Of a stretch of 43,041 nucleotides of DNA, positions 2,336 through 30,750 are shown one piece after another. Both the position numbers and the translations under genes were made by a program. The stretch spans positions 1 to 43,041 of the IMG/VR virus record IMGVR_UViG_3300047440_000138; one strand, written 5' to 3'. Under the pieces are notes generated by a model. It worked only from the letters and a program-made list of their open reading frames with translations. It was not told the DNA's origin and made no database searches. Each line of letters starts with the position of its first letter. The stretch's first letter is position 1. Source of the stretch: a virus.

Positions 2336-2550
2336 AGGTTGCTCGCCAGTTCTGCCGTGTAGGCGTCTTCCCGCTTCCACTGACAGCCCTCGCAGACGAA
2401 ATCAGGGTTCGGTGTGCAGTCGGCGGTCAGGTGATATTCAGGACAGATCACCTCTGGAGAGCCGTCGTAGTTTTCTTCCCAGGTGCCGGGGCACTCGGTT
2501 TTCGCCTTGCAGTCCGCGCACGGGTGATGGTGGACTTTGACTCTCGGCAT
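2332..2550 (-). CDS. Cys-rich zinc-binding-like protein, 72 aa
   Basis: Seven cysteines occur as CADC, then CPG, CPEY, DC and CEGC, with His residues near the start (VKVHHHPCADC). This could hold two zinc ions. The stop overlaps the HNH-like start, and the gene directly follows the NinB-like gene. No family is recognised. It is one of the Cys-rich series in this operon. Confidence 0.6.
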   Translation of the reverse strand: MPRVKVHHHPCADCKAKTECPGTWEENYDGSPEVICPEYHLTADCTPNPDFVCEGCQWKREDAYTAELASNL

Positions 2551-2982
2551 TTAGGCGGCCTCCGATTCATCGGGCAACGGCACGACGATCCCGAACTCGG
2601 TCGCTGCAAACCGCACGCCCCATTCCATGAGCGTGGAGAATTCATCAGTCGTCAGATCGGAGCTGCGCTTGTTCGGTAATTCCTGCTGCAGCTTTTCGTC
2701 GTGGTGTGTCCCGAAGCATTTGGCGACGAGCGCGTAATGCACGTCCTCGTGTTCGTGCTGGTCGTAGCCGAGCCCTTCAGCGATGAGCGGAATCGCGACG
2801 CCCCACCACCACGCGTTCTGAGCAAGACTCCGCTGGTTCCGATGCTTCCGCACGGTGATGTCGACGTCGCAGCCAGCCAGCGATTTGAAGTACTGCTGCC
2901 GACTCGGTGCCTCAGACAACATCAGCCCGAAGCGTCCCGACTCGTCGATGTGGCCGTGGAAGACAGGAATCGGTTTCGCCAT
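2551..2982 (-). CDS. ninB: NinB-like recombination protein
   Basis: The 143-residue protein carries the family pattern around KHRNQRSLAQNAWWWGV (about 50-66), followed by a helical region containing TTDEFSTLMEWGVRFAATEFG. NinB/Orf proteins of lambdoid phages bind single-stranded DNA and help load recombinases. Here it sits below an ERF annealing protein and a YqaJ exonuclease, making a full phage recombination module. ATG 2982 overlaps the upstream stop as TGATG. Confidence 0.75.
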   Translation of the reverse strand: MAKPIPVFHGHIDESGRFGLMLSEAPSRQQYFKSLAGCDVDITVRKHRNQRSLAQNAWWWGVAIPLIAEGLGYDQHEHEDVHYALVAKCFGTHHDEKLQQELPNKRSSDLTTDEFSTLMEWGVRFAATEFGIVVPLPDESEAA

Positions 2983-3152
2983 CACGCCGCCTTCCGCGCG
3001 AACCGCGCACACCAGGCATGTCGACACCGGGCGCAGGAGTAGAACCGCTCAGACGGTCGCCCACAGTGGCCACAGCGTCCCATCGCACGGCGACAGGCAC
3101 GACGCCGACGTTCGGCCGCTGCCCTGACGGTTCGTGTGTGCTGGGTCGGCAT
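2982..3152 (-). CDS. Small zinc-ribbon protein, 56 aa
   Basis: A basic N-terminus precedes CGHC and CARC knuckles (GRCGHCGRPSERFYSCARC) and a final HAWC, typical of a zinc ribbon. ATG 3152 overlaps the upstream stop, and its stop overlaps the NinB-like start. It probably binds nucleic acid. The exact role is unknown. Confidence 0.65.
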   Translation of the reverse strand: MPTQHTRTVRAAAERRRRACRRAMGRCGHCGRPSERFYSCARCRHAWCARFARKAA

Positions 3153-3541
3153 CAGGCCACTCTCGCCCATGTATTACCAGCGCGTCGGACAAGGTTCTTT
3201 GCTTTCAAGATCGATAGCGCGTTCGACCGATCCTTCGGGTCCATTTCTGCGGTCTGCTTGATCAGTTCCTTCGCCGTCATGCCCATCGGCGCGCGACCGA
3301 GAACAGTCAGAATGAGGTTGCGCCTCGTTTCTGCCTCATTCCTATCGCCTGCCGGCCGCGGCTTCTTCCGAGGTTCGACCTTCGGCGCGGTAAGCGGCAA
3401 CGCCTGCGGCGTCCCGTTCACGCCCCACACACGCGACAGGTTCTCAATCGCGAGTTCGATCGCATCGAGCCGCGCGGCCAGCGGGAGGCGTTCATCGCGC
3501 AGGGCCGCGATCGTGTCGGTAACGTGTTTGGGCGTTGCCAT
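3152..3541 (-). CDS. Hypothetical protein with C-terminal winged-helix-like domain, 129 aa
   Basis: The N-terminal half is helical, a Pro/Lys/Arg linker lies at about 52-66, and the C-terminal half (about 70-129) reads like a winged helix: RNLILTVLGRAPMGMTAKEL, then LSILKAKNLVRRAGNTW. Such domains usually bind DNA. It is coupled by overlaps to the YqaJ-type exonuclease upstream and a zinc ribbon downstream. It could regulate the operon or act in recombination. Confidence 0.6.
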   Translation of the reverse strand: MATPKHVTDTIAALRDERLPLAARLDAIELAIENLSRVWGVNGTPQALPLTAPKVEPRKKPRPAGDRNEAETRRNLILTVLGRAPMGMTAKELIKQTAEMDPKDRSNALSILKAKNLVRRAGNTWARVA

Positions 3542-12666: not shown

Positions 12667-12797
12667 GAATGCTTCCCCTTGTGTCCAGCCTTTCGATCGC
12701 AGCGCGTCATCGCGCCAGGCGGCGTGAGTTTTTGCTTCCAACAGAGCTGCACCTTCGGCCCCGGCACGTCGGGCACCTTCACAATGCGTTTCGTCAT
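12657..12797 (-). CDS. Small phage protein with CxR..GHxGxHSW motif, 46 aa
   Basis: Starts at ATG 12797 (ATGA overlap with the glycosidase-like gene). The product ends in MTRCDRKAGHKGKHSWA, a Cys/His pattern common to many short phage proteins and probably metal-binding together with an upstream Cys (QLCWKQ). Its stop overlaps the next gene by 10 bases. Role unknown. Confidence 0.6.
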   Translation of the reverse strand: MTKRIVKVPDVPGPKVQLCWKQKLTPPGAMTRCDRKAGHKGKHSWA

Positions 12798-14179
12798 GGT
12801 CTGATCGGCGCGATGAACTCGCGGCCATCTCCTAAGCGTTTTGAGTAGACCCGCTCACACGGGCACGGCGCCGGCCCCGGCTCGAGGTCGTCGCGGTGGA
12901 TGTAATAGCCGTCTTGGAATTCCAGCGGCACCGAGCGCGCCGCCTTCGCAAACTCGATCGCCAGCGTGAGCTCGGTCCCCGTCCACAGCGTCGAGTCCTT
13001 GCCGTGGATGCTGTGAAACGCGCAGCCGGCGTTAAGCAGCACACACCCGCGGCCGATGTCCTGCCAATGCGCCACACTGCCGTCGTTGTCTGGTGCGCGC
13101 GCGGTTTCGTTGATCACGCACGGCACGTTGTAGGGATCAGCCACATCTGACCAGCAGTTATGCACGACCTTGCGCGGCTGTGAACTGTGGTACGTGGCGT
13201 AGTCCCAAAGCGGAAAGACCGGCTGCGAATCCTGCGTACTCGACCCGTGCGAGGCGAGAATCGGCGGCGGCGGGCGTTGCATCCGATCGAGCGGGACGCC
13301 AGCGTTCGCCGGGTTGTCGGCTTCGTTGATCAATTCCAGCCGGACATTCGTCAGCGGTGCCACGGCTGCGATCAGGCTGTTCCAATGCGCGACCATCTGA
13401 TCGGCGGTGCTGAAGAACGACCCGTACGGCCCGGTGAACCCGACGAATTCGATCCGCAGATTCCGTTTCGCCGTCAGCTGCGACAACTTTGGGATCAGGC
13501 CCGTATACAGGTCAGGATGCTCTGAGGGGACCAACCGCCCGATCAGGGGCACGTTGTAGGCGGTGAACACGCGGAGCGTCGTAAACCCAAGCTGTGACCG
13601 CTGGACGAGCACCGGATCGACGTCCTCGCCATTCGCCAACCGCCCGAGCAGGTTGAAATCAGAGGCTTCGATGTCGGTCACGCGCTCGCCGGTGTCTGAC
13701 TGGAAGAACAGCCCGGCCCGCAACCACCGCGGCAGGATCACGATCGAGAACTCCAGCCGCACGTCGGGCAGGTTTTGGATATTCCCTTCGAGGCTGAACA
13801 ATTGCAGGGCGAACTCGACTTGCGTCACTTGCCGTTCTGGCGCCGTGATGATCAGGTGCGCGCCCCAGCCTTCAGGGGTGGAGGGATCGAGCACGCAGTT
13901 CGCGCGCTTCACGCCATCCGGTAAGGGATCCATCTGGCAGCCGACCCGCCGGCCGTCGTCCGTCAGGAGTTGCGCGCTGGGGTTCGGCGCGTTGCGGATC
14001 GTGATCGCGACGACCCGCGCGCCTGGTGGTGGTTTTGGCGTGATGATCGGCGGCCGTGGCGGGACACAGGCCGCGAGGATCAGCAGCGCAATCATCCCGA
14101 AGATCCCGGCGAACCACACCACAACCCAGCCCAAATAGCTGAGTCGTTCGCGCCAGTCTCGGGTTGTTGCCGTTCGCAT
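12794..14179 (-). CDS. Membrane-anchored, glycoside hydrolase-like lipoprotein
   Basis: The 461-residue protein starts at ATG 14179 with GGAAGG 6 bases upstream; the longer reading to 14224 starts inside a terminator stem. A transmembrane/lipoprotein signal covers about 15-38, with lipobox LAAC (Cys38), then a Pro-rich linker (39-53). Residues about 120-430 look like a TIM-barrel glycosidase of the clan A type: RVFTAYNVPLIGRL (203-216), ELINEAD with Asn285-Glu286 as candidate acid/base, and VINETAR with Glu358 as candidate nucleophile. The spacing of about 72 residues is plausible. It may trim cell-surface glycans, for lysogenic conversion or release. The enzyme class is inferred from motifs only. 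Confidence 0.5.
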   Translation of the reverse strand: MRTATTRDWRERLSYLGWVVVWFAGIFGMIALLILAACVPPRPPIITPKPPPGARVVAITIRNAPNPSAQLLTDDGRRVGCQMDPLPDGVKRANCVLDPSTPEGWGAHLIITAPERQVTQVEFALQLFSLEGNIQNLPDVRLEFSIVILPRWLRAGLFFQSDTGERVTDIEASDFNLLGRLANGEDVDPVLVQRSQLGFTTLRVFTAYNVPLIGRLVPSEHPDLYTGLIPKLSQLTAKRNLRIEFVGFTGPYGSFFSTADQMVAHWNSLIAAVAPLTNVRLELINEADNPANAGVPLDRMQRPPPPILASHGSSTQDSQPVFPLWDYATYHSSQPRKVVHNCWSDVADPYNVPCVINETARAPDNDGSVAHWQDIGRGCVLLNAGCAFHSIHGKDSTLWTGTELTLAIEFAKAARSVPLEFQDGYYIHRDDLEPGPAPCPCERVYSKRLGDGREFIAPIRP

Positions 14180-14195
14180 TAGAATCCTTCCCGAC

Positions 14196-14245
14196 AAAGC
14201 AAAAGCCGCCACACCGACGCGCATCTCGCGCGACTAGTGGGCGGC
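14196..14245 (-). terminator. Rho-independent terminator after the lysozyme gene
   Basis: On the minus strand, GCCGCC-CAC (14245-14237) pairs with GTG-T-GGCGGC (14214-14205) with one bulged T. An inner CGCGC/GCGCG stem lies within, and TTTTGCTTT follows. This ends the structural/lysis transcript; the glycosidase-like gene starts about 17 bases past the T run, so its expression must come from readthrough or a separate promoter that I cannot identify. A longer 7-bp inverted repeat (ATTCCCC/GGGGAAT, about 14270-14322) lies between this and the lysozyme stop. Confidence 0.75.
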
Positions 14246-14333
14246 TCCTGCCCATCGGCTCTTGTCAGATTCCCCGCGCGTCGAGCGTCAACGCGTTGCG
14301 GCCGGCCAGCCTAGGGGAATCGATCGGAGGTCG

Positions 14334-14759
14334 TTAGTTCAGTTCGTCAAATCCTGTTCTGAGCATTCTGGCGAGTCGGTTGTATCGGTTCATGTTCTGC
14401 TTCGCGGCGGTCGAGTTCAGCAGTTCCGTCGCCGCGGTCGCGAGGTCGCCGATCGCGAGCGCGTGAATCATCTTCGCGAACCCGCGGAACCCGTTCGCGC
14501 CGAGGTTGAACCGCACGTCGACGATCACCCGTTGCCGCACGTCGTCGAGTGCAGGGAACCATGCGAACGACGCGAGATCATGTAGGCATTCGTCGATGTC
14601 GTGATCGAGCAGCGCGAATGCTTCCGCACTTGAAATGCCCTTCGCCTGCAGGTTCCGCCCGACCCCGATCGTGAGGATCCCCTGCGTGTCGGCGTAGGGT
14701 TTCAGTTTCAACCCTTCGTGATCGACCAACTGATTGACGAGCTTCTGTCGGTCGGTCAT
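14334..14759 (-). CDS. T4-type lysozyme (GH24 endolysin)
   Basis: The 141-residue enzyme keeps the full catalytic triad of T4 lysozyme with identical spacing: Glu15 (DHEGLKLKPYAD), Asp24 and Thr30 (ILTIGVGRN). In T4 these are Glu11, Asp20 and Thr26. The fold continues through FNLGANGFRGFAKM and NRYNRLARMLRTG. It cleaves peptidoglycan between MurNAc and GlcNAc to lyse the host. There is no signal peptide, so it needs a holin. It is coupled by ATGA to the membrane coiled-coil gene upstream, a probable lysis partner, and is followed by a terminator. Confidence 0.92.
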   Translation of the reverse strand: MTDRQKLVNQLVDHEGLKLKPYADTQGILTIGVGRNLQAKGISSAEAFALLDHDIDECLHDLASFAWFPALDDVRQRVIVDVRFNLGANGFRGFAKMIHALAIGDLATAATELLNSTAAKQNMNRYNRLARMLRTGFDELN

Positions 14760-14986
14760 TGGCGATACACCAAGCGGTCCAGTTTTTCTTCAATCCGCAC
14801 TAGACGCCGCTCCAGGTCATTGCGTTGACTTTCCAGCACCGAGAGGCGTTTATCGAACCCGTTCGCCGTCGTGTTGTACGTCACCAAAATCGACACCACG
14901 ATCCCCAACACCCACGCGACCGCCTGCCACTTGATGCCGCGGCCATCGAATTGCGTCTCGTCAGGATTCGTGATGCTGTTCATCAT
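14756..14986 (-). CDS. Membrane coiled-coil protein, possible holin or spanin, 76 aa
   Basis: The start is taken at ATG 14986, with AAAGGG just upstream (another ATG is 3 bases further on). One transmembrane helix (WQAVAWVLGIVVSILV, about 20-36) is followed by a coiled coil (RLSVLESQRNDLERRLVRIE). This N-in, C-out layout resembles phage i-spanins or hemolysin-XhlA-like lysis proteins. Coupled to the lysozyme gene. Confidence 0.65.
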   Translation of the reverse strand: MMNSITNPDETQFDGRGIKWQAVAWVLGIVVSILVTYNTTANGFDKRLSVLESQRNDLERRLVRIEEKLDRLVYRQ

Positions 14987-15044
14987 TCCCTTTAGCACCA
15001 GATCGTTGCGACGGAGTTCGGCCTGGTCACTAGCGCCACCGCTA

Positions 15045-16415
15045 CTAGCAGAAAATGACACCGCGCATGCCGTTCTGAATGATTCCAGCTATGTCACCAC
15101 CGATAGTGCAGGTGCCGTTTGCGCCCTTTTCAATCCACGCGGCAAAGTGATAACCGATACCCGGATAGCCACGATACGTTCCTGTCGCGGTTACGTGAAT
15201 CGATGTTGCTGTAGCGTTAAGTGCACTCTGCGTGAATCCAGAGAACGCTGACGTGCTGTCGAGGCCCACGCCCACTTTAAAACCAGAAGTTGAGTTACTT
15301 CGTAAATCAGCGGAACTACGAACATCAAGGTCAACCAATGTCGCGGCATCACCTGAGACCCACGCCACCTGGTTTCCGGCGTTAGCATTGGCTTGTTGCC
15401 AACTGTTCGTTGTCCACGACCACGAATCGGTGGTATCAATAACATCAAGGGGTCGTGGAACTTGATTGTAGGCATTCCACACAAACCGTTTCCCGCCGAC
15501 TTGCGAGGTTCGAGCCATGCCGCCACTATCGGCAACCGTGTTCGCGCCGTCCGCGCGAATCACGCCCACGTAGCGATAGGCGGGCGTTCCACTCAGCACC
15601 AAAATGCCGTTCTGATCCACGAGCGTTTCGGATTCCGTCGTGTCGTTCGTCCAGTCGGCCCCGAGGACGATCTGCGGGGTGCCAGCGTTGTAGTCGATGT
15701 AGACGTTTTTGTTCTTGCCCGAGGTGATCGTCAGCGCTTTGGTGATCTGGGTGACCGACTTCAGCACGACCGTCGTGCCATCGTAGAGCGCGATCTGTCC
15801 GTTCGTTTTGGCTTTCCCGCCAGGTGTGCAGGGCGTCCAGTAGATCGTGCCCTGCGCCGTCCGATCCGATGTCGATACCGGGACGCCGGTTTCCGTTGTC
15901 AGCCGTCCCTCACAGATCGCTGGCGCCGCGACACTCGTGATCGACGTGGCCCCTGAGAACACCACGGATTGCCCGCTGGCCGGCGAACCCGTCGTCGTGA
16001 CGGTCCCCGCCCCGCCGCTGGCCGGTGCATTCGGACCACCGAATAGAATCGCTTCCGGTGTCGCGGAGGCTGTGAGCGCGTACCCGAAATCGCCTTCGAC
16101 CTGCGGCGAACTATGCGGCGTGGCTTGCCCGGCGACCGTGTGCGTCTTCAGGAATTGCCCGCGTGTCGCCGCCGTGTTCAGGTTGATTTTCGGGCAGTAC
16201 CCGCATGTCACGACGAGGCCGGTCGCATTGTTTGCGATCCCGTTCGGTTCAAGAATGACCCCGATCCCGCGCGTGGAGAGCGCGCCGGTTGCCGTGGTCG
16301 TGAATCCGTAATCGTTCGTGTTGTCGAGAATCACGACGTCGCCGTAATTCAGGTTGCCGCCTGATTTGTTCGTCAGGAGCGCGACGACGGATCGGTTCAG
16401 GGCTGTGCTAGACAT
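15045..16415 (-). CDS. Fibre- or appendage-like virion protein, 456 aa
   Basis: This is a long, Gly/Thr/Ser-rich, beta-type protein with few charged residues, as in phage fibres and head or tail appendages. The N-terminal half (about 1-130: VVALLTNKSGGNLNYGDVV and on) is a domain often seen in head-fibre proteins. A low-complexity turn (GTVTTTGSPASGQ, about 135-147) links to the C-terminal half, which probably meets the host surface. It follows the ejection genes and precedes lysis genes, the usual place for receptor-binding proteins. No tailspike active site is seen. Confidence 0.6.
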   Translation of the reverse strand: MSSTALNRSVVALLTNKSGGNLNYGDVVILDNTNDYGFTTTATGALSTRGIGVILEPNGIANNATGLVVTCGYCPKINLNTAATRGQFLKTHTVAGQATPHSSPQVEGDFGYALTASATPEAILFGGPNAPASGGAGTVTTTGSPASGQSVVFSGATSITSVAAPAICEGRLTTETGVPVSTSDRTAQGTIYWTPCTPGGKAKTNGQIALYDGTTVVLKSVTQITKALTITSGKNKNVYIDYNAGTPQIVLGADWTNDTTESETLVDQNGILVLSGTPAYRYVGVIRADGANTVADSGGMARTSQVGGKRFVWNAYNQVPRPLDVIDTTDSWSWTTNSWQQANANAGNQVAWVSGDAATLVDLDVRSSADLRSNSTSGFKVGVGLDSTSAFSGFTQSALNATATSIHVTATGTYRGYPGIGYHFAAWIEKGANGTCTIGGDIAGIIQNGMRGVIFC

Positions 16416-16926
16416 TGGCGATCACGTACTCCATCGTGAGAATGTGTCCGGCCGTGGGCGCCGCGCCAAAGGTGACTTGCGCGCGATTCGCCGAGAGCGT
16501 GTAGCCGGTCGGGTCTTGAATCGATCCGTTGTCCGCAATCCATTCCAGGTATTCCGCGATGTCGAGCAGATTGAAGATCGTCGTCGCTCCGTCCCCGAGC
16601 AGCCGCATCAACCCGTGCAAATGCCCGCCGACACTGCTGCCGCCTGATCCGCTCGCGCTGATGGTGCGTACGCCCGCCACGGAGTCGTCGAACGTGATAT
16701 TCGTGCCCGCCACTTCGCGCCGGGAGTTCGCGAGTCGTGCCGTCTCGTTCGCGGTCGTGAGGTACGTCGCGTCGTTCGGCGCTGCGCCAATTGCCGCCGC
16801 TGTCGAGGTGTACGGAATGACCAGTTGATTGCCGGCCGGATCGGTCCCGACGACGCCGCCCGAAGGTGAACCCAGCACCCCGACGCCAGCGAAGGGCCGC
16901 TTGCGTCCTCGTAGTGGTGATCTCAT
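16408..16926 (-). CDS. Fibre-associated virion protein, 172 aa
   Basis: A basic N-terminus and Gly-rich stretches lead into a Thr/Ala-rich region (YLTTANETARLANSRR), then GSGGSSVGGHLHGLMRLLGD and a beta C-terminus (TLSANRAQVTFGAAPTAGHI) found at the ends of phage appendage proteins. Its stop overlaps the 456-aa fibre gene and its start overlaps the giant ejection gene. Probably an adaptor or trimerising fibre part. Confidence 0.5.
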   Translation of the reverse strand: MRSPLRGRKRPFAGVGVLGSPSGGVVGTDPAGNQLVIPYTSTAAAIGAAPNDATYLTTANETARLANSRREVAGTNITFDDSVAGVRTISASGSGGSSVGGHLHGLMRLLGDGATTIFNLLDIAEYLEWIADNGSIQDPTGYTLSANRAQVTFGAAPTAGHILTMEYVIANV

Positions 16927-19900: not shown

Positions 19901-22900
19901 TGTCCTTCGAGAGCTTGATCGGCTCGGTGTCGTTGACGCCGTTACGGATCGCGTCGAGAGCACGGTAGACCGGCTGCGCTTTGAGTTCGTCGCCGACCTG
20001 CGCGGCGACCTTGTCCTTCTCGGTGTTCCACCAGGTTTGCCGCTCACGTTGCACCGCGACGAGAGCTTGCTTTTCCAGATCGGCCCGCGCGCGTTCACTG
20101 GCGTCGGCGACGGTCGTGCGGTACTTGGCGAATTGCTCGTCGCTCATCCCGGCGGCTTTCGCATCGGTAAACAACGGCCGGACGTCGCCTTCGGTTTCAG
20201 CCTGCTTGATCGCGTCGTCGCTCGCCAGCAACCGATCGAAGACCTGTCGGACTTCTGGCGAGACGTTGACAGCCAATCCCTTGATCGAGCGATACACCCC
20301 GACGAGCCACGCACGGAACCGGGCGAACACCGGCCGCAGTTCCGCGCTCGGGGCTTTTCCGTCCATCAGGTAGGATTCAAAGCCACGGGCAAATTGTTCG
20401 TGCTGCTGCGTGCTGAACCCGACGCCGCGATGGTCCTCGTCGGCGAACCACTCTTGCACCGTCGCCATGTCGGCGAGGATCTGCTGTTGTTCGTCCGTCC
20501 GCTCGGCGGGCGCGATCTTGGCGATTTCATTCGAGAGATCATCGAGCACACCGAGGAAAAGGTGTCCTGATTCGTGGATTACCGAACTCAGATCCGCGCC
20601 TTGAAACAGGTCGATCCTGGTCTGCTCATTGCCGAATGTGATCTTGGCGCGCTCGCCTTGAAACAGCGTCGACTGCTGGCCCTTCTTCGACGGCTTCGCA
20701 ACCTCTGACGTCAGCGAAAACGGCGCGGCAAACTCCGGTGTTTTGTTTTCCGTGTCACGCACGGCGCCGACATCTGCGGGCAGTCGCGGCTGTTGCTCGC
20801 CCGTGCTGAGCGTATCGAACAGCCCGCCCGCGTCAGGCTTTGCGCCTTGATTGAACGAGTTTGGATCGAATGAGGTGTCGCCGCCCGTGTCGACCGCATC
20901 GCTTTCCAGTGACTTGTCGATCGCATCCGAGAGCGCATCAGTGAATTCGACCGGCGCGACCGTGCCCCACGACGGCGGAAGTTCCGGCGGCGACATGGAA
21001 TCGTAGTGTCCGGCCGCCCGGTTCTCGGCCACACGCAGGACACCTTCGGCGAGGTTGTTATGCACGTCGCCGGTCGCGAGCAGTTTACTGATCGCCTCAG
21101 CGACCTTGCCGCGCGTCGCGCTGTTCTCGCGCGCCAGTTCTCCCTTGCGCGCACCGCTCGACACCTTGTTCAGCGGAGCAAAACCGAGGACGTCGTGATA
21201 GACCGCCGCGCCTGCACTGCCGGCCACCACCTGCATGTCGCCGCCGGCAGCGTTGCCATGCTTGCCGGTTTCATCGCCGAGCCAGTTCCACGTCCGGCCG
21301 ACGAACGGGAACGTCTCCATTTCGTCGCGGATTCGTTCAATCTCGCGACGGACTTCCGGGGTAATGCGGGCTTGGTTTTCTTCTAGTGGACGACGAACGA
21401 AGGCTTCGTCGATGCCGGCGGGGGAGTGTATCCGGCGTGGTTCAGCGCTAGGGCCATTGCCTGCCCCTTCTCCACTCCCGCCTTGATCAGCGCGAGGCTG
21501 TTCTGCAGGACTGCTTGAAACGACTGGCCGGACTGGAGTTTCACTGGCGGCATTGCGTCCCTTATCCTGTGCTGGCGTGGTGCCTGTGTCAAGTCCTTCA
21601 CGCTGGATCTGCAACCCGTACCGCTTGAACAATTCGGCCGGATCCACACCGGCCCGTTGCCCGAGTGTCCCGAAGGCCGATTCGTACAACGTCGCGTAAC
21701 TCTCAGCCGTGGACTTCTCGAACCCGGCCGCGGTCAGCTGATCGATCATGTGCTGGCGGATCGGTTCGGTAGGCGGTTGGTTCGAACCTTCAACCTGTTG
21801 CTGGCGTTCGGCGTGGAACGCGGTTTCGAATGTCTGCGCTTCTCGCGCATTCATCTGCTCGGGTGCCAGTCGGAGTTCATTCGCAAAGAACGCGTTATGT
21901 TCGGTCGGCCCGATCTTCACGGCATACGCCGCCGTGGGAATGGCGAGGTCTTCACCCGTGCGGACCGCGCGATCGTACGCCTCCGGGTTGCCGACGACAT
22001 CAGCCGCCACCACCCGAGGATCGAGCCCCTTCCCTTGCCAGTACGCCGTCCACGACTCAATCGGGGCGTACAGGGTGTCCGCGCCGGACTCTTTGACCTG
22101 TCCGTGAATGAGTTCCGCCGCCTTCTCCGGGGACCGCTGGACCGTCTTGGATTCGGCTGCTGTCTCGCCCAACTTCTCGACGAAATGCGCCGTGCCGTGG
22201 CCCACGACGGTCATCGTGCCGGCCGCCGCGAGGGCACTGACAACCGCGCCCCCGATCTCGCTCGGCTGCTCCTTGAGCCAGTCGGCCAAGGTCTTGTCTT
22301 TGTTCGCTGGCAGGAAGGCCCACGCGTTCAGGTTTTGGAGCTCGGTCTGAATTGGCATCAGAGTCACGGCCGGTAGGATCTGATGCGCTAGTGTGGTAAT
22401 CAGCCCGCTTTTCGCGGCGAGATCCCCCAGCATCCGTTCCGCCGGAACGAAGCTCACGGCCGCCTGAATCGCGCCGTCGATCGCGCCCGTCGCCTCCGAC
22501 TTGCCCACCGATAACCCCTGCTTGCGCGCCGTCCCGTAGGAACTGCCGAACCCCTGCGCGGCAAACATCGCGGCGAGACTCACACCGCCCGATACGGCCC
22601 CAGCGATGAGCGCAGGGACCATCTGGCCAGCGCCTTCGATGCCGCTGTAGATGTTGCGCTCGATGAAGCCTGCGCCCGTCTGTGGCCCTCTGACGCGGTT
22701 GGCGAGGTCTTCCAGGTATTTCGCCTTCCGGGCCGATTCTTCTGCGAGGGCCGGATGCCCGGTCGCTTCGCCGACCGCTTCAGGAATGCCGTACAGGCCG
22801 CGCGCCACATCCAACGGGAACGCACCGACCGCGCCCGCGAGGTTCCGGCCGTAGCCCAGCACCTTTTCAAACGTCGACAACGCCGGCAGATCGTCTTTCG

Positions 22901-23222
22901 AAACAGCCGCATTCGTGACGGACTGCCCGAGCCAGTCAGCGGTCTGTGGCGACTGTTTCAGCGTTTGGGCGGTTTGCTGCTGCTCGTGACGTTGCTTGAT
23001 CGCATCGAAGTTCTTCAGGATCAGGTCGGTCGGCAGTCCGGTCGACTTCGAAATCTCGGTCGCTTGTGCGGCCTGTTCGGGGTTGATGGGTTGCGCGGCC
23101 TGAGTGGCAACACGGGCCTTCGTGTCCACCTGTCCGTACAGGTTCGCGATCGTCTGGTCGTACGTGTTCGGCGGTTCGCCTGCCGCGTCCGTCAACGGCT
23201 CGTCGTACTGGTTCAGCGGCAT
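16923..23222 (-). CDS. Giant internal virion / DNA-ejection protein (T7 gp16-like position), 2099 aa
   Basis: One uninterrupted 2099-codon gene follows gp14- and gp15-like genes, the T7 ejectosome order. N-terminal part: helical, with hydrophobic Gly/Ala-rich segments (about 110-350) that could enter the membrane. About 540-600: low-complexity linker. About 640-740: a globular region (TWNWLGDETGKHG). His883-Glu-Ser-Gly-His887 is a metallopeptidase-type HExxH motif inside VIHESGHLFLGVLDDL. The C-terminal quarter resembles large polyvalent phage proteins (LAWNFATMVRHVTNITSG, VGKMFSTFMTYGLSLHRQN). It is thought to be packaged and injected with the DNA. No lytic transglycosylase motif is recognised. 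Confidence 0.75.
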   Translation of the reverse strand: MPLNQYDEPLTDAAGEPPNTYDQTIANLYGQVDTKARVATQAAQPINPEQAAQATEISKSTGLPTDLILKNFDAIKQRHEQQQTAQTLKQSPQTADWLGQSVTNAAVSKDDLPALSTFEKVLGYGRNLAGAVGAFPLDVARGLYGIPEAVGEATGHPALAEESARKAKYLEDLANRVRGPQTGAGFIERNIYSGIEGAGQMVPALIAGAVSGGVSLAAMFAAQGFGSSYGTARKQGLSVGKSEATGAIDGAIQAAVSFVPAERMLGDLAAKSGLITTLAHQILPAVTLMPIQTELQNLNAWAFLPANKDKTLADWLKEQPSEIGGAVVSALAAAGTMTVVGHGTAHFVEKLGETAAESKTVQRSPEKAAELIHGQVKESGADTLYAPIESWTAYWQGKGLDPRVVAADVVGNPEAYDRAVRTGEDLAIPTAAYAVKIGPTEHNAFFANELRLAPEQMNAREAQTFETAFHAERQQQVEGSNQPPTEPIRQHMIDQLTAAGFEKSTAESYATLYESAFGTLGQRAGVDPAELFKRYGLQIQREGLDTGTTPAQDKGRNAASETPVRPVVSSSPAEQPRADQGGSGEGAGNGPSAEPRRIHSPAGIDEAFVRRPLEENQARITPEVRREIERIRDEMETFPFVGRTWNWLGDETGKHGNAAGGDMQVVAGSAGAAVYHDVLGFAPLNKVSSGARKGELARENSATRGKVAEAISKLLATGDVHNNLAEGVLRVAENRAAGHYDSMSPPELPPSWGTVAPVEFTDALSDAIDKSLESDAVDTGGDTSFDPNSFNQGAKPDAGGLFDTLSTGEQQPRLPADVGAVRDTENKTPEFAAPFSLTSEVAKPSKKGQQSTLFQGERAKITFGNEQTRIDLFQGADLSSVIHESGHLFLGVLDDLSNEIAKIAPAERTDEQQQILADMATVQEWFADEDHRGVGFSTQQHEQFARGFESYLMDGKAPSAELRPVFARFRAWLVGVYRSIKGLAVNVSPEVRQVFDRLLASDDAIKQAETEGDVRPLFTDAKAAGMSDEQFAKYRTTVADASERARADLEKQALVAVQRERQTWWNTEKDKVAAQVGDELKAQPVYRALDAIRNGVNDTEPIKLSKDSLAHYDADTLKALRKHDAYRVDGGIDVETAANMFGFASGDELVQALKSAVPFNQAVETEAQRRMVETHGDVVLDGRFADAAKEAVATHRDKVVEAELAALAGAQGKGGIIPPARLLRSMAEQRIGSTKVRDVKPGLFLMAAQRASQKAFDLLAAGDRQGAIQAKQQELINLAHYREALAAREFSDKAREYLGPHFDKAVTRERIGKAGGGYLEQIDGLRDRYDFARVTNLELGKRASLAKFVEQELGQGHELAIPPDLLNDARRANYRDISVDELRGVYDAAKSIEHWARFKNKLLRAADKRELDQLGAEGAQSIAENSSGAKVLPLEPRLPGTNLKRKLVAAELGHLPMPFLLRQLDGYKDGFFFDHVWRPAHEAQNAEVVMGHDAAQRWAAINDERFKGRESERYAKTPIPGVGSLSTAARLVVALNYGNEGNRERLMSAGVGNSGPLTEPKIRAILDTLTAEDWKYVRDTADLINSYKGQIGTLYKRVTGVEPKWVEPTPFSTAHGDMPGWYYPIAYEGRSSARASGFDEASFAKIIEQSSHMRAQTANGHTEARTEHTRIPLRADLEVVGEHLQQVIHDLTHREMLIDTGRILGRKDIQQAIYEHKGDQFYNEIRAAFRDMAIGPTPPPGWYRSINSVRQGYMMARLAWNFATMVRHVTNITSGMVRVGWSDVAKAIPQWLGSAKDSENSAAFVEANSSLMKNRWSTRMEGLGSIKNDIGLNRGPWAAAFRDALSGIGVDPELSHRVSDSYLYGIHKIIQMAEIPTWLAAYHKALGEHPEDRARATDRADAAITDAFGGGRLLDQASVQRNYVGKMFSTFMTYGLSLHRQNYEIFHKDQTVGRKVMDATLLNVAPLVLLSAIFHQVHKRDSWSWTLFSDAFAHTMGMFVGLREVANALSSPDYQGPASFAPFGTSIRLLNQTANAIRSQDTDKVVKASKSAAELAGGFYGVPVYQIEKTFEGLMRVMEGKGDLSELLFGPPPKQQAHR
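21383..21553 (-). CDS. Possible nested gene inside the giant ejection gene, 56 aa
   Basis: In the +1 frame relative to the giant gene, ATG 21553 has an AAGGGA ribosome site 4-5 bases upstream and encodes 56 residues. The core (QNSLALIKAGVEKGQAMALA) resembles small phage proteins with an IKAGKxxxQAxAIAL pattern. The 49-aa protein at 31086-31235 here has a similar QNVAIALKQAGK end. The giant protein at this place is a disordered Pro/Ser/Gly linker, so dual coding would cost little. It may still be chance. Confidence 0.4.
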   Translation of the reverse strand: MPPVKLQSGQSFQAVLQNSLALIKAGVEKGQAMALALNHAGYTPPPASTKPSFVVH

Positions 23223-25427: not shown

Positions 25428-26140
25428 AGCAGCACCTCCATACCGTCGTGGGTGACTTCCACAATGGCGTCGCGAACGTCAATCACGATCGGGCGACTCC
25501 GCACGATCGCGATCAGCCCGTAGCCCGCGCTCCCGGCCCAGATGTTGTAGAACTTCACGGCCTTGTCGACGTTCCCGGCCTGCAGCATCAACGCCGTCGC
25601 ACCGACCATGTAGTCGTGAACCGGATCATCGTCGTGCGGTTCGAGTGCCGAGCCAGCGGCCTGTTTCGCCGCGGTCAATTGCTCATGGAACGTTTCGCCA
25701 ACGGCTCGCGCCGCGTCGCAGCCGAGCGCCCAGCGATCGATCGAGAGATGAAACACCGTGCCAGACATGCCCTGCCGTGTCTCAAACAGCGGCCGGAACC
25801 CAGAGCGTCGAGCGGCCACGTCAGCGCCACGGTTCTCGGTCGGCACGAGTGTGCGCCCCTCAATGCAGTCCGTTTTCGTGAACATGTACTGCGCGACGTC
25901 CCGCATGAGATCAGCGGCTTCCTTACCTTGCCCGTCCGGCAGGAACATCGAATGCACGTCGTACACGCCAGAACCGAGCGCGATCAGGAGCATCGCCCCG
26001 TGTTCGGATTCGAAGGCGACGTTGTACGGATCTGAGAACAGCGCCGACATGTCGATCGGCCCGTCACCGCCGAGAAACGGTCGTACGTCGGGATGATTGG
26101 CGACGGCGTTCGCGTGTCGCGCGTCCATCGTGCGCCTCAT
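25418..26140 (-). CDS. Phage GNAT-like (gp13-type) protein, 240 aa
   Basis: ATG 26140 overlaps the tail tubular B stop as ATGA. The first 150 residues have the fold pattern of phage GNAT-like proteins: NHPDVRPFLGGDGPIDMS, LIALGSGVYDVHSMFLPDGQ, a helix, then TENRGADVAARRSGFRPLFE. The acyl-CoA loop is only weakly kept, so catalysis is doubtful. Homologues sit in podovirus tail/core clusters. The C-terminal half (HDDDPVHDYMVGATALMLQA) is virion-associated in character. Its exact role in assembly is unknown. Confidence 0.6.
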   Translation of the reverse strand: MRRTMDARHANAVANHPDVRPFLGGDGPIDMSALFSDPYNVAFESEHGAMLLIALGSGVYDVHSMFLPDGQGKEAADLMRDVAQYMFTKTDCIEGRTLVPTENRGADVAARRSGFRPLFETRQGMSGTVFHLSIDRWALGCDAARAVGETFHEQLTAAKQAAGSALEPHDDDPVHDYMVGATALMLQAGNVDKAVKFYNIWAGSAGYGLIAIVRSRPIVIDVRDAIVEVTHDGMEVLLCR

Positions 26141-28371
26141 CCCCCGACTCCCGTCTGCAGAATCAACCCCAGCACATTGCACGGCAGCGGATCGGTGTGA
26201 CGCAGGTACACCCGCCCGCGGGGTTCCCACGTCGCCGTGATGTTCACGTCGATCGGCCCGCTCTTGAGGCCCGTCGTCGCTTCCCACGGTTCCGGCTTCG
26301 AGGCGAGTAAATGCGTATCATCCGGCCCGGAGAGGAGACTGCCAGCGGTGCCATGCACGATCGCGGTGATGCCCTGCACGCGTTTGCGCTTGTCCCGCAG
26401 GCTCGTGCCGTCCGCGTCGAGGTCCAGCGTGATCAGGTCGCAGTTCTGAATCGGCAGGCCAATTTGCACGACCGACGCGGCCACGGCCAGATCGGGCGTG
26501 AGTGCCCCGGCTGAAATGGTGTAGGACGTGCCGGCATCCACGCCGTCAGAAATCACCACCCCATCGGCCAGCACCGCGACGCGTTGGCCGTTCAGATGAC
26601 TCAAGCCGGTAAAGTGTGTCGCTGCCGCGCCGTCATAGGTCAGCCCGCAATCGACGTAGAAGGCATCTTCCAAGGCGTCCGCTTCGGCCTGAAACGGCGC
26701 TTCGAGCTTTTCGATGTACCGCACGGTCGAGCCATTGATCGTGCGCTTCACGATCGCGTACAGCGTGTCGACGCCGGCCGCGGTGTCCGGCAGCACGGCG
26801 ATCGACTCGACGAGCCCACTGGCCGCCGTGGTGCGGTGCCGGTGCCACGCGACGACTTCCTGTTCCTTGACGTAGGTCACCCCGAGCAGCCAGCCGTCCG
26901 AGCGCACCACCCACACGACCGGATGCGGATACCGGGTAAAGGCTATTTCTAGGATGCTCACGCCTTCGAACAGGTGCGAGGCCAGCAGGTTCAGATCGAC
27001 CGGCGAGAACCCGCCTTGTGACTGATCGAAGTCCAGCGCCCGCATCGCCGTGCCAAGCGCTTGCGCGTAGATGATCGAATTCCCGATCACTTCCGGCCGG
27101 ACGTTCACGCTGGCGCCGATGTAGCCGATCTGCACCGCGTTGATCGACGTCGGACGAATCACCCCGGCATCGTCACCCTTGACGACCCATTCGCCCTCGT
27201 CGGTCAAAATAACGAGGCTTTGCAATCCGACCAGGTGCGCGACGGGGTTCAAATGGTTGCCGGCGAGGTTGAACGACACCGCATCGTCATCCTCAAGCGG
27301 CACCGAGGTCGAGTAGTTGTGATACGCCCCGACCTGCGAGCCTTCGACGTCCTCCGGGTTCACCTTCGTGCGGCCCATCCACAACCGCTGTTGGTAGTAG
27401 GCCGCGGTTCCTGGATAGTTGTTCGTCGTGGCGAACAGCGTGCGCGTCACCGGCGGCGTCACGGTGTAATCCGGCTGATAGCCGGGATCCTTGAAGCTGT
27501 TCGAACTCGCGACGCCCACGAACCCGTAGATGCCATTCCCCACCGGATCGAGGAACACGTAGTACTCGGCCGCGCCGGTGACCGCCGTCCAGCCGAGCAC
27601 GTTCGGCAGGGCCGTTGTTGGCGCCGCGCAGGCCGCTATCGTGATCACCGCAGACGGGTACGACTTCTCGTACGTCTCTGTTTTCGCGGTGACGAGCACG
27701 TATTTCATCGTGAGCGCGCCGGCGGCACCAGGCGTGCCAGTCAGGCCAGCGATCGGCGGCCCAATCGACGGCGCCGTGGTCATCTGCACGAGCACCCAAT
27801 CCGTGTGCCCGAGGCGTTGGAGTTCGTACGGTGGGTAGCTCGGATGCGTCAGCGTCAGGACGTCAGCCGACTGCGTGACGTGAATCCGTGGCACGTCGGC
27901 CACGAGGTAGGGCGTTGGGACTTCGTAGATCGTCCCGGTCAGCGGATACCAGTACAACACGTTCGGCGGGACGTGGTTGATGTGGGCGAGGATGCAGTAG
28001 TAATTGATCCCGCCCGACACGACCAGATCCCCGGCGACGTAGTTCGTGGCCCCGTTCCAGGCGGCGACGCCGGACACGACGACCTGCGCGCCGTGCCAGT
28101 AGAACCGCACGTACAGATCGCCGAATTCCAGCAGGTAGGTCTGATCGTCGCCTTCGAAGACGAACCGCCTGAGCTTCGCGGCTTTCGTCGAGTCTTTCGT
28201 CGTCGCGACATAGCGCAAGCCCGGTCGCTTGGTGATCCCGCCTTGCTGCTGAATGATGAAATTTTGGCAGAGCGCAACGCCGTGGGCATACTTCGCCTGA
28301 TCCGCGCGGGCGTACATGCTGGGCGCGAGTTCCCCGCCGACGAACGACCGTTGCAGTAGCGGCTCGGTCAT
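26137..28371 (-). CDS. Tail tubular protein B / nozzle, with carbohydrate-binding-like insert
   Basis: The 744-residue product starts at ATG 28371 (ATGA overlap with tubular A). The N-terminus matches T7 gp12-type nozzle proteins: SFVGGELAPSMYARAD, then LCQNFIIQQQGGITKRPGLR, then FEGDDQTYLLEFGDLYVRFY. Residues about 105-141 hold a chitin-binding-like module, AWNGATNYVAGDLVVSGG followed by YYCILAHINHVPPNVLYW. A nearly identical module is in tubular A. The rest is beta-rich, including DDAVSFNLAGNHLNPVAHLV. It forms the tail tip on the portal-adaptor ring, and the module may touch surface sugars. Confidence 0.85.
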   Translation of the reverse strand: MTEPLLQRSFVGGELAPSMYARADQAKYAHGVALCQNFIIQQQGGITKRPGLRYVATTKDSTKAAKLRRFVFEGDDQTYLLEFGDLYVRFYWHGAQVVVSGVAAWNGATNYVAGDLVVSGGINYYCILAHINHVPPNVLYWYPLTGTIYEVPTPYLVADVPRIHVTQSADVLTLTHPSYPPYELQRLGHTDWVLVQMTTAPSIGPPIAGLTGTPGAAGALTMKYVLVTAKTETYEKSYPSAVITIAACAAPTTALPNVLGWTAVTGAAEYYVFLDPVGNGIYGFVGVASSNSFKDPGYQPDYTVTPPVTRTLFATTNNYPGTAAYYQQRLWMGRTKVNPEDVEGSQVGAYHNYSTSVPLEDDDAVSFNLAGNHLNPVAHLVGLQSLVILTDEGEWVVKGDDAGVIRPTSINAVQIGYIGASVNVRPEVIGNSIIYAQALGTAMRALDFDQSQGGFSPVDLNLLASHLFEGVSILEIAFTRYPHPVVWVVRSDGWLLGVTYVKEQEVVAWHRHRTTAASGLVESIAVLPDTAAGVDTLYAIVKRTINGSTVRYIEKLEAPFQAEADALEDAFYVDCGLTYDGAAATHFTGLSHLNGQRVAVLADGVVISDGVDAGTSYTISAGALTPDLAVAASVVQIGLPIQNCDLITLDLDADGTSLRDKRKRVQGITAIVHGTAGSLLSGPDDTHLLASKPEPWEATTGLKSGPIDVNITATWEPRGRVYLRHTDPLPCNVLGLILQTGVGG

Positions 28372-29135
28372 CGGGTGTTCGTCCACTCCGCATCGCCGTT
28401 CTTCGGCATCTGTGATTCACGCGTCGCCACGGTCGCCGCGAGTTCGGTCGCGAGCGGATAGACCGCCATGCAGGTTTTCGTGACCTTGTCGTCTTTCGCG
28501 AGGGACGGCGCCAGATAGGCCGCCAGCCGCCAGGTAAACGCATCGATAAACAGGTCATCCGCCCAGAGGTGATCACAATCGATCACGGTGTATTCAAGGA
28601 CGGCGAACCGTTCATGCACGTAGAGCAGCAGGCCGTTCGCATCCCGGCCGACGCGAAACGGGGGAGGGTTTTCGTTGTACGTCCGCGCCATCGACGCCGA
28701 CGTGCCAGACGGCAAGAACCGCCGCGCGAACAGACAGTCGCTCGGCCAGCGATAGGCGTACGTCCAATCGCCGTTCGCCTGACTGAGCACGGTCAGGTTC
28801 CAGTACGTGCCGTTCGGGGGTAGGTGATTGATATGCGAGAGGATGCAGTAGTAATACAGGCCGCCGACGCTCACCGTATCGCCGACTGCGTACGTCTGAT
28901 CGGCCGCCCACGCCTGCACGTTGTCGTCGTCACTGGTCGCTGGTCCCTGCGTCTGCACGAGTTGCAAATATTTCGTCGCAAACGGCCACGGGAACTGGCG
29001 CAGCGTCGCGCGGAGGACGTGATCAAAGACGATCCCGCCGGTGTAGGCTTCGCGCGTCGCGTCGCTGATCGCGGTGACGCCTTTCGAGACGCCGATTTTC
29101 AAGAGCGCCAGATTCAGCAGTTGGACCGAGGTCAT
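28368..29135 (-). CDS. Tail tubular protein A (gatekeeper), with carbohydrate-binding-like insert
   Basis: The 255-residue protein starts at ATG 29135, overlapping the upstream stop. The family pattern is clear: LLNLALLKIGVSKGVTAISD, then a helix ending FPWPFATKYLQL, then WTYAYRWPSDCLFARRFLPS and FIDAFTWRLAAYLAPSLAKD. Between them (residues 76-112) a module has been inserted: WAADQTYAVGDTVSVGG then YYCILSHINHLPPNGTYW, the CBM5/12 chitin-binding layout. It forms a ring between portal and nozzle. Readings upstream of 29135 are overlap with the previous gene. Confidence 0.85.
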   Translation of the reverse strand: MTSVQLLNLALLKIGVSKGVTAISDATREAYTGGIVFDHVLRATLRQFPWPFATKYLQLVQTQGPATSDDDNVQAWAADQTYAVGDTVSVGGLYYYCILSHINHLPPNGTYWNLTVLSQANGDWTYAYRWPSDCLFARRFLPSGTSASMARTYNENPPPFRVGRDANGLLLYVHERFAVLEYTVIDCDHLWADDLFIDAFTWRLAAYLAPSLAKDDKVTKTCMAVYPLATELAATVATRESQMPKNGDAEWTNTR

Positions 29136-30625
29136 GGCAGCACATCCGGGTTCAGCAGGCCAATTTCCTGCACGTTCACGTCGTACGGCGTCGCCCACGA
29201 GCCAGCCTGCGCGACGCGCGCCGAAGGATCGACACAGCCCATTGCTGGCGGGATTTCGTCCGCGCCCCAGCAGCCCAGCGCGGGCGGGGTGTTCTGACAT
29301 TCGGCCCCGCCGCCACCGCCACCGCCGCCTGTCGTTCGATAGAGCAAAAACGGACAGGACTGCGAATGCCCAAATCCGGGCCACGTATCCGACGAATTGC
29401 CCTGAAATAGTCCCTCTTCGAATTCGACATTGACCACGGATCGCACGGTGAATCCGTCCGCAGCGTTGATTTCTCGGAATTCGTCGAGGCCGTCGCTGAG
29501 TCCAGGTTGCAGCCACACCCAAAAATGCGACGTGTCGACCGCGCCCGTGAGCCGATCGACGTAGTGGGTACTAAAGAGGTAGGTGTTTAGCACCACACCC
29601 GCCGCGTCATAGCGAATTACGGTGTCTTGAGTCAGCGGCTTGACGAAGCGCACGACCACGGACCCATCGCCCAAGACGACCATTGAATCGTCGGCTAAGG
29701 TCGGCCCCAACGTGCTCCACCCAGCGCCCGGTCCAGCCGTCAGGTCAGAGAGGGCGACGTTATTGATCACGTCCCAACGATGCACCGCCGAGGTCAGGCT
29801 TTCGGTGTAGTACAGGATCGCGTTGTTTGCCGAAGCACCTAATCCCGTCACCCGACTAGCCGGCGCCATTGCGCTCCCGATCGTCAGCGTGGCGTTGATC
29901 GTGCCGTCACCGAGGACGATCTGAACGCGCGCCAATGCCCCGACGCCACCGCCGGCGTACCATCGATCGCCACTGAGCGCGGAACGGATCGGTCGCGGAT
30001 CAAATCCCGGTTGCGCGTGTGTCGCGACGGTGTTGAATTGATTGTCGAGGACTCGCCACCCGTCGAGTTCATCGTCCTCTAACAACATCAGGCCGGACGG
30101 GAGAGAATCCCCAGCTTCACCCGTTGGCATGTCGAGGATGAAATCGAGGACCGAGCCGGTCACCTTGCTGAGAATGGCGAGCGGGAACCCTATCGTGTCA
30201 TCGTTCACGATCAGATCGCCATCGGCGTAGGAGGCCGGCGCAAACTCCGCGAGACGCAGACTCAGGAGCGCAGGGATTGGCGTGCCGGACAATTTTCTGA
30301 TTCTCAGAAAGTAGACGGTGTTCGGCGCCACCGGCCACTGCGACGGCAGTCCTTGCGTCGCAGCTTGAAGGCTTGGATTGATGTCGTACGACACGGGCGC
30401 GGCGGCTGGACCTAACCAGATGTCGACGTTCGGAATATAGGTACTGCCCGCATCACGCCACGGATTGAGCTCGATCACTTTGGCAGTTGGCGAGGTAGTG
30501 AATTTCACCCACACCGTGTACACAACTCCGGCGTCATCGACGCGTTGCTGGTAGTGCAGTTCTGTCGTGCTGAGCGTACCCAGGTCGATCGCCGTGAGCG
30601 CCGAGACGTTAGTAGGAGCCGCCAT
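29132..30625 (-). CDS. Beta-rich virion protein with poly-Gly tail, 497 aa
   Basis: ATG 30625 overlaps the stop of a 41-aa membrane gene as TGATG; the longer N-terminus from 30748 only shadows that gene. Beta repeats such as GDGTINATLTIGSAMAPASR and NAILYYTESLTSAVHRWD suggest a beta-propeller of several blades (about 180-420). A run of eight glycines leads to a Cys-rich tail with PPALGC and PPAMGC repeats. Placed between head and tail genes, it is likely a tail or head decoration protein. No enzymatic motif is seen. Confidence 0.6.
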   Translation of the reverse strand: MAAPTNVSALTAIDLGTLSTTELHYQQRVDDAGVVYTVWVKFTTSPTAKVIELNPWRDAGSTYIPNVDIWLGPAAAPVSYDINPSLQAATQGLPSQWPVAPNTVYFLRIRKLSGTPIPALLSLRLAEFAPASYADGDLIVNDDTIGFPLAILSKVTGSVLDFILDMPTGEAGDSLPSGLMLLEDDELDGWRVLDNQFNTVATHAQPGFDPRPIRSALSGDRWYAGGGVGALARVQIVLGDGTINATLTIGSAMAPASRVTGLGASANNAILYYTESLTSAVHRWDVINNVALSDLTAGPGAGWSTLGPTLADDSMVVLGDGSVVVRFVKPLTQDTVIRYDAAGVVLNTYLFSTHYVDRLTGAVDTSHFWVWLQPGLSDGLDEFREINAADGFTVRSVVNVEFEEGLFQGNSSDTWPGFGHSQSCPFLLYRTTGGGGGGGGAECQNTPPALGCWGADEIPPAMGCVDPSARVAQAGSWATPYDVNVQEIGLLNPDVLP

Positions 30626-30750
30626 CAGCGGCCCCTCAACGCGCGCAGCAACAAATACAGCCAGCCCGCCCAGAACGAGCAGTAGCAGACAAACAGCACG
30701 GACCAGAAGGCCACGTACCACGCCGGCGGGCTGTTCACGAGTCGCCACAT
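30625..30750 (-). CDS. Tiny membrane protein, 41 aa
   Basis: The ATG at 30750 overlaps the upstream stop as TGATG, and its own stop overlaps the next gene the same way. The product is one Trp/Phe/Cys-rich membrane helix (WYVAFWSVLFVCYCSFWAGW) with a basic end. It sits among structural genes, an unusual place for a membrane peptide. The exact start/stop overlaps support it. Confidence 0.55.
   Translation of the reverse strand: MWRLVNSPPAWYVAFWSVLFVCYCSFWAGWLYLLLRALRGR

Follow-up and report, generated by a model that had tools for sequence, protein, structure and literature searches.

The stretch of DNA analysed here (the window) is a virus record of 43,041 bases that encodes a GP7-family major capsid protein, a portal matching Head-tail_con (both Pfam), and a tail adaptor and tail nozzle pair of the type known from BPP-1 and epsilon15. 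The adaptor gene (tubular A, phrog_394; 28368..29135, minus strand) codes for a protein of 255 aa that matches PHROG 394, a family of 190 positions, at E 5e-29 over residues 1-255. The nozzle gene (tubular B, phrog_376; 26137..28371, minus strand) codes for 744 aa and matches PHROG 376 at E 7e-177; a match to the Carin-1 nozzle (8ck1_A) at E 7e-106 establishes homology to a solved podovirus tail nozzle, and the profile of the nozzle alignment also matches LME-1 9efk_M. An AlphaFold model of the adaptor superposes on the Carin-1 connector (8ck1_E) with Z 20.9 and an rmsd of 3.5 over 199 residues, and on T7 6r21_M with Z 12.5; this single-chain model contains the helix bundle and the beta fibre dock of a T7-type tail adaptor. 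The adaptor and nozzle backbones are thus alike over their whole length to those of Carin-1, a Cobetia phage (PDB 8ck1), the chains of which lack the two inserts described below and run on across both sites.

Between the capsid genes and the adaptor lies an open frame of 538 aa, taken from the ORF list and the sequence (29132..30748, minus strand), which overlaps the adaptor start by four bases (ATGA). Its product matches no family in Pfam or PHROGs, and the phage collection, in which 49 records match the adaptor, contains no relative. The C-terminal part is weakly similar to the frame upstream of the adaptor in locus L206 (27% over 160 aa, E 0.006), and the protein may be a short relative. 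In many relatives the adaptor forms the C-terminal part of a single frame of ~1100-1600 aa; it lies inside an open frame of at least 430 aa, mostly more than 1,100 aa, in 29 of 216 loci. Examples are L019 (971-4573), L021 (1004-4570), L022 (189-3869) and L186 (44-3709), where it makes up the last ~200-260 residues of ~1,190-1,230 aa, and in L022 and L186 there is no Met near the expected adaptor start.

Elsewhere in the window, the N-terminal part of a protein of ~2,099 aa (21001-23222) matches LPD22 (E 6e-18). Downstream of the tail genes (12794-16926) are three proteins of 476, 456 and 172 aa with no Pfam or PHROG match that are candidates for fibres or spikes; a search for solved relatives of the 456-aa protein (15048-16415) found none, the one match being at E 0.45.

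Sequence and predicted fold of the inserts

The adaptor and the nozzle each contain a CBM5/12-like segment, at residues 73-112 of the adaptor (28800..28919, minus strand) and residues 102-141 of the nozzle (27949..28068, minus strand), referred to as the A and B inserts respectively. Both include the motif W...Y..GD.V followed by YYCIL.HINH.PPN..YW. The two segments align without gaps with 23 of 40 residues identical (score 136), and the likeness ends where the segments end; with both removed, the best local alignment of the two proteins scores only 37. A search of the record with the nozzle as query recovers the adaptor segment at E 4e-12.

Searches with the whole proteins match Pfam CBM_5_12 at adaptor residues 75-102 (E 7e-5, 23.1 bits) and nozzle residues 104-131 (E 2e-4, 21.7 bits), both below the curated cut-off of 26.2, which a 63-residue B segment searched alone passes with 26.9 bits. 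Among 43 B segments from the window and the surveyed loci, 38 match CBM_5_12 at E<=0.01, and Y16, G19, Y29 and W46, including the core Tyr and Trp, are invariant in all. A profile built from the B segments retrieves chitin deacetylases (E 1e-7) as well as ChiA1 (E 8e-6).

The structure model of the B segment (63 residues, built from the 43 sequences) has a core pLDDT of 92-95. Foldseek with this model returns mostly chitin-binding proteins and phage fibres, none at E < 0.001, the domain being small. Pairwise comparison with VIA-align gives Z 7.1 with chitinase C (1.6 A over 46 residues), Z 7.0 with a V. cholerae chitin deacetylase (1.0 A over 45 residues) and Z 4.2 with ChiA1 1ed7 (over 40 residues, 35% identity). 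A Z of ~7 is middling by itself, but the sequence matches point the same way as the structure comparison, to a small three-stranded CBM5/12 fold, as predicted. The CBM5/12 layout that a preliminary description had proposed from the letters of the two genes is supported.

Insertion sites in the adaptor and nozzle

The A insert lies between model strands 61-63 and 126-129, in the block of beta strands that separates helices 2 and 3 (28-47 and 194-212), and is itself modelled with low confidence (pLDDT 52-75). T7-type adaptors combine a helix bundle with a fibre dock of five strands and an embracing helix at the C terminus, and the fibre is gripped between the adaptor dock and a dock on the nozzle (PMC6702177, PMC10575957); given this layout, the strand order of the model would place the A insert within the predicted fibre dock. 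The segment is missing in seven other aligned adaptors and is thus an insertion. In the alignment with 8ck1_A, which has no counterpart to it, the B insert is flanked by the equivalents of residues 107 and 110, in a loop that probably faces outward on the nozzle.

The distribution of both segments was surveyed in loci that encode homologous tail proteins. The nozzle loop is 17 residues or shorter in 113 of 226 loci, contains a CBM-like insert in 75 and another insert of at least 60 residues in 37, with one fragment. These counts leave out L204, L207, L222 and L230, whose contigs are already represented by other loci, and differ from population rates, loci L179-L195 and L200-L240 having been fetched with insert-bearing queries; scans with the nozzle alignment gave inserts consisting only of the CBM-like module in 27 of 80 viral loci (L019-L098) and 5 of 80 genome loci (L099-L178). 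Some of the inserts classed as other also have a CBM-like part (L059, L084, L097, L129 and L133); in the loops of L059, L084 and L129 this part apparently follows other repeats. FCCH-like inserts of ~80 residues fill this loop in L001, L237 and further loci; those of L001 and L237 pass the E1_FCCH cut-off (43.7 and 32.1 bits against 29.5), and the insert of L044, of ~63 residues, is a fourth kind with no good match. The B site is therefore a variable loop of BPP-1/epsilon15-like nozzles that is empty, CBM-like or occupied by an unrelated FCCH-like domain. Vibrio phage PS25B.1 has a nozzle (L016, 2992-5310) annotated as 'chitin-binding type-3 domain-containing'; the loop at the B site of this protein is short, with an FCCH-like stretch farther along the chain, and the annotation may be wrong.

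The adaptor site is rarely filled in the surveyed loci. Out of 216 with an adaptor, 204 are short, ten contain a CBM-like insert (eight distinct sequences) and one is intermediate; the one remaining locus, L011 (adaptor at 2449-3255), has an FCCH-like insert at the site of the window's CBM insert (E 1.4e-5, below the cut-off). A scan with the L011 adaptor for a second adaptor of this kind found only L011 itself, and a scan of viral contigs with the window's adaptor alone found no relative. Caulobacter phages Jess A, RapA, BL94 and SR18 and the Manatee Spring phages ctQRb9 and ctEw122 have a CBM5/12-like segment in the nozzle gene as in the window; for Jess A, ctQRb9 and ctEw122 the loop that holds it is shown to be the one used in the window. 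Unlike in the window, the Jess A adaptor (L015) lacks an insert, and none was found in those of loci L198 and L199.

The aligned nozzles and adaptors and the surveyed loci that lack the segments reject the idea that these are a native part of all tubular proteins and agree with the earlier proposal of an insertion into both. They map two insertion sites for accessory domains onto conserved podovirus tail rings. No paper about a CBM insert in a nozzle or adaptor was found among open-licence papers judged by title or opening abstract.

Origin of the two inserts

The resemblance between the two genes had been attributed to duplication between neighbours, in part from the visible similarity of their DNA. 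This similarity is real (63% identity over 120 bases) but adds nothing beyond the likeness of the proteins: the same protein segments written in random codons drawn from both genes have 63.3 +/- 2.6% DNA identity, and identical residues use the same codon in 15 of 23 cases against 13.6 expected.

A recent tandem duplication, with one of this phage's two inserts serving as the template for the other, would account for the 23 identical residues in adjacent genes, but the nearest relatives of both inserts are in other phages. The A insert is closer to those of L021 (62%) and L019 (60%) than to the B insert beside it (58%), and the B insert is closest to that of L183 (85%), the adaptor of which has no insert. 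A tree of 77 inserts over 40 columns, which is few, and with an unsettled bootstrap, also joins the window's A insert to the A inserts of L019 and L021 (98/73) and its B insert to that of L183 (99/72). Together with the codon-resampling control, these results reject a recent duplication for this lineage, and we consider it highly improbable.

In the same tree a group made up of seven of the eight distinct A inserts and the B insert of L218 (95/85) nests within a broader set of B inserts, which would fit an old copy from B to A. The long-branched A insert of L208 falls elsewhere, and a single clade of all eight A inserts is not rejected by the AU test (p 0.32). In a tree of the adaptor backbone from which the insert was removed, the carriers occupy three places, and its starred branches force at least three changes. 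Since the A insert groups with those of other phages and its carriers are scattered on the backbone, these phylogenies indicate that it predates the lineage of this phage, with loss or movement since then. An old B-to-A transfer is plausible as its simplest source, the direction resting on 40 columns.

Candidate roles of the modules

Each of the two tail rings of this BPP-1/epsilon15-like podovirus has a single module of predicted CBM5/12 fold in what would be a peripheral loop. In the adaptor it would sit within the fibre dock; in the nozzle it fills a loop that in relatives is empty, holds this module as well or contains an FCCH-like domain. If the stoichiometry is of the T7 type, the modules would be displayed up to 12 times (adaptor) and six times (nozzle) per virion.

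The preliminary description saw in the stacked rings a possible source of many-fold avidity for a host sugar, a proposal that the absence of the usual ligand residues weakens. Two adjacent aromatics, Tyr-Trp or Trp-Trp, matter for binding in CBM5 modules, and the core is made up of another Tyr and another Trp (PMC8449059). By mapping the ligand positions through sequence spacing from the conserved strand Tyr, we find an aromatic at either position of the pair in none of the 77 distinct inserts. An aromatic occurs in the following loop in nine, two of these being Trp (L034 and L099). The CBM12 of ChiA1 depends on one loop Trp, Trp687, and may use a residue other than the CBM5 pair. The inserts thus share the fold, the core aromatics and the Pfam profile with the CBM5 and CBM12 modules of chitinases and chitin deacetylases and lack the CBM5 ligand-binding aromatic pair. 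Assigning a phage tail protein to CBM5/12 does not by itself imply sugar binding, as here the fold is kept and these residues are gone. The pair of CBM5/12-fold inserts in the two rings is real, and at most a putative sugar binder.

It is nonetheless possible, if doubtful, that the modules are auxiliary adhesins, forming weak sugar-binding sites round the tail (18 with T7-type stoichiometry) that add avidity for a host glycan, not necessarily chitin, when the phage adsorbs. In addition to the fold itself, this would be consistent with the fused upstream proteins of L022 and L186, which have a further weak CBM_5_12 match in their N-terminal part, that of L186 also having a weak lectin-like match (Laminin_G_3); the N-terminal part of L022 has no relative among solved structures or in the phage collection. 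In Vibrio phage OWB both tubular proteins, A and B, attach to a membrane protein of Vibrio, the host receptor, and to the cells (PMC7241545), so ring proteins can touch the host. Against a role in adhesion stand the missing aromatics, the unrelated FCCH-like domain that fills the same loop in related phages, and the places where the fold occurs in solved phage tails.

Three such structures contain matches to the fold, in each case as part of a fibre or spike. The match in the A-1(L) short fibre (133-187) is inside the joint domain (111-215) that binds the baseplate wedges (PMC10966104); that in Milano gp124 (25-95) is inside the tail-binding module (1-175; outlined in PMC10811340); and that in the 7-7-1 long fibre (73-120) is inside the anchoring region (1-120; outlined in PMC12796354). 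The carbohydrate-binding module of the A-1(L) neck fibre did not bind host cells (PMC10966104). The window differs from these three phages in having the fold inside ring proteins, which in T7-type tails hold the fibres.

Because the ligand aromatics are missing, the fold is found in virion-anchoring parts of three solved tails and the A insert lies in the predicted fibre dock, we favour, with moderate confidence, a structural docking or spacer role over sugar avidity. The modules would then act as compact domains on the tail surface to which another virion protein is docked or by which it is braced, and candidate partners are the fibres or the upstream protein, which is translationally coupled to the adaptor here and fused to it in relatives. 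Some observations point the other way. The low pLDDT of the A insert may reflect a flexible tether that is free to touch the cell, the OWB proteins bind a receptor, the ligand positions were mapped by spacing, and the solved examples are only three. If the docking role is correct, such modules would offer phages a simple route to attach new fibres to an old tail.

The patchy presence of the modules, with at least three changes among carriers on the adaptor backbone, and the several unrelated insert types at one site would also be expected of passengers, neutral or slightly useful domains that have spread at tolerant surface loops of tail genes with neither a specific partner nor a ligand. We think this quite unlikely, given the four residues that are invariant in 43 B segments from very diverged phages, a conservation that suggests selection on the fold at least.

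A more specific form of the docking role, which we put forward tentatively and regard as rather unlikely, is that adaptor and nozzle carry matched, swappable docking modules flanking the fibre socket, the pair making up an interface that can be exchanged to hold a fibre or else the large upstream protein, which in some relatives is fused to the adaptor. The module type in the adaptor would then tend to equal that already in the nozzle. In all ten loci where the A insert is CBM-like the B insert is CBM-like too, many of these being near relatives that represent few independent events, and L011, with its FCCH-like adaptor insert, has a large nozzle insert with only a weak FCCH hint (E 0.19).
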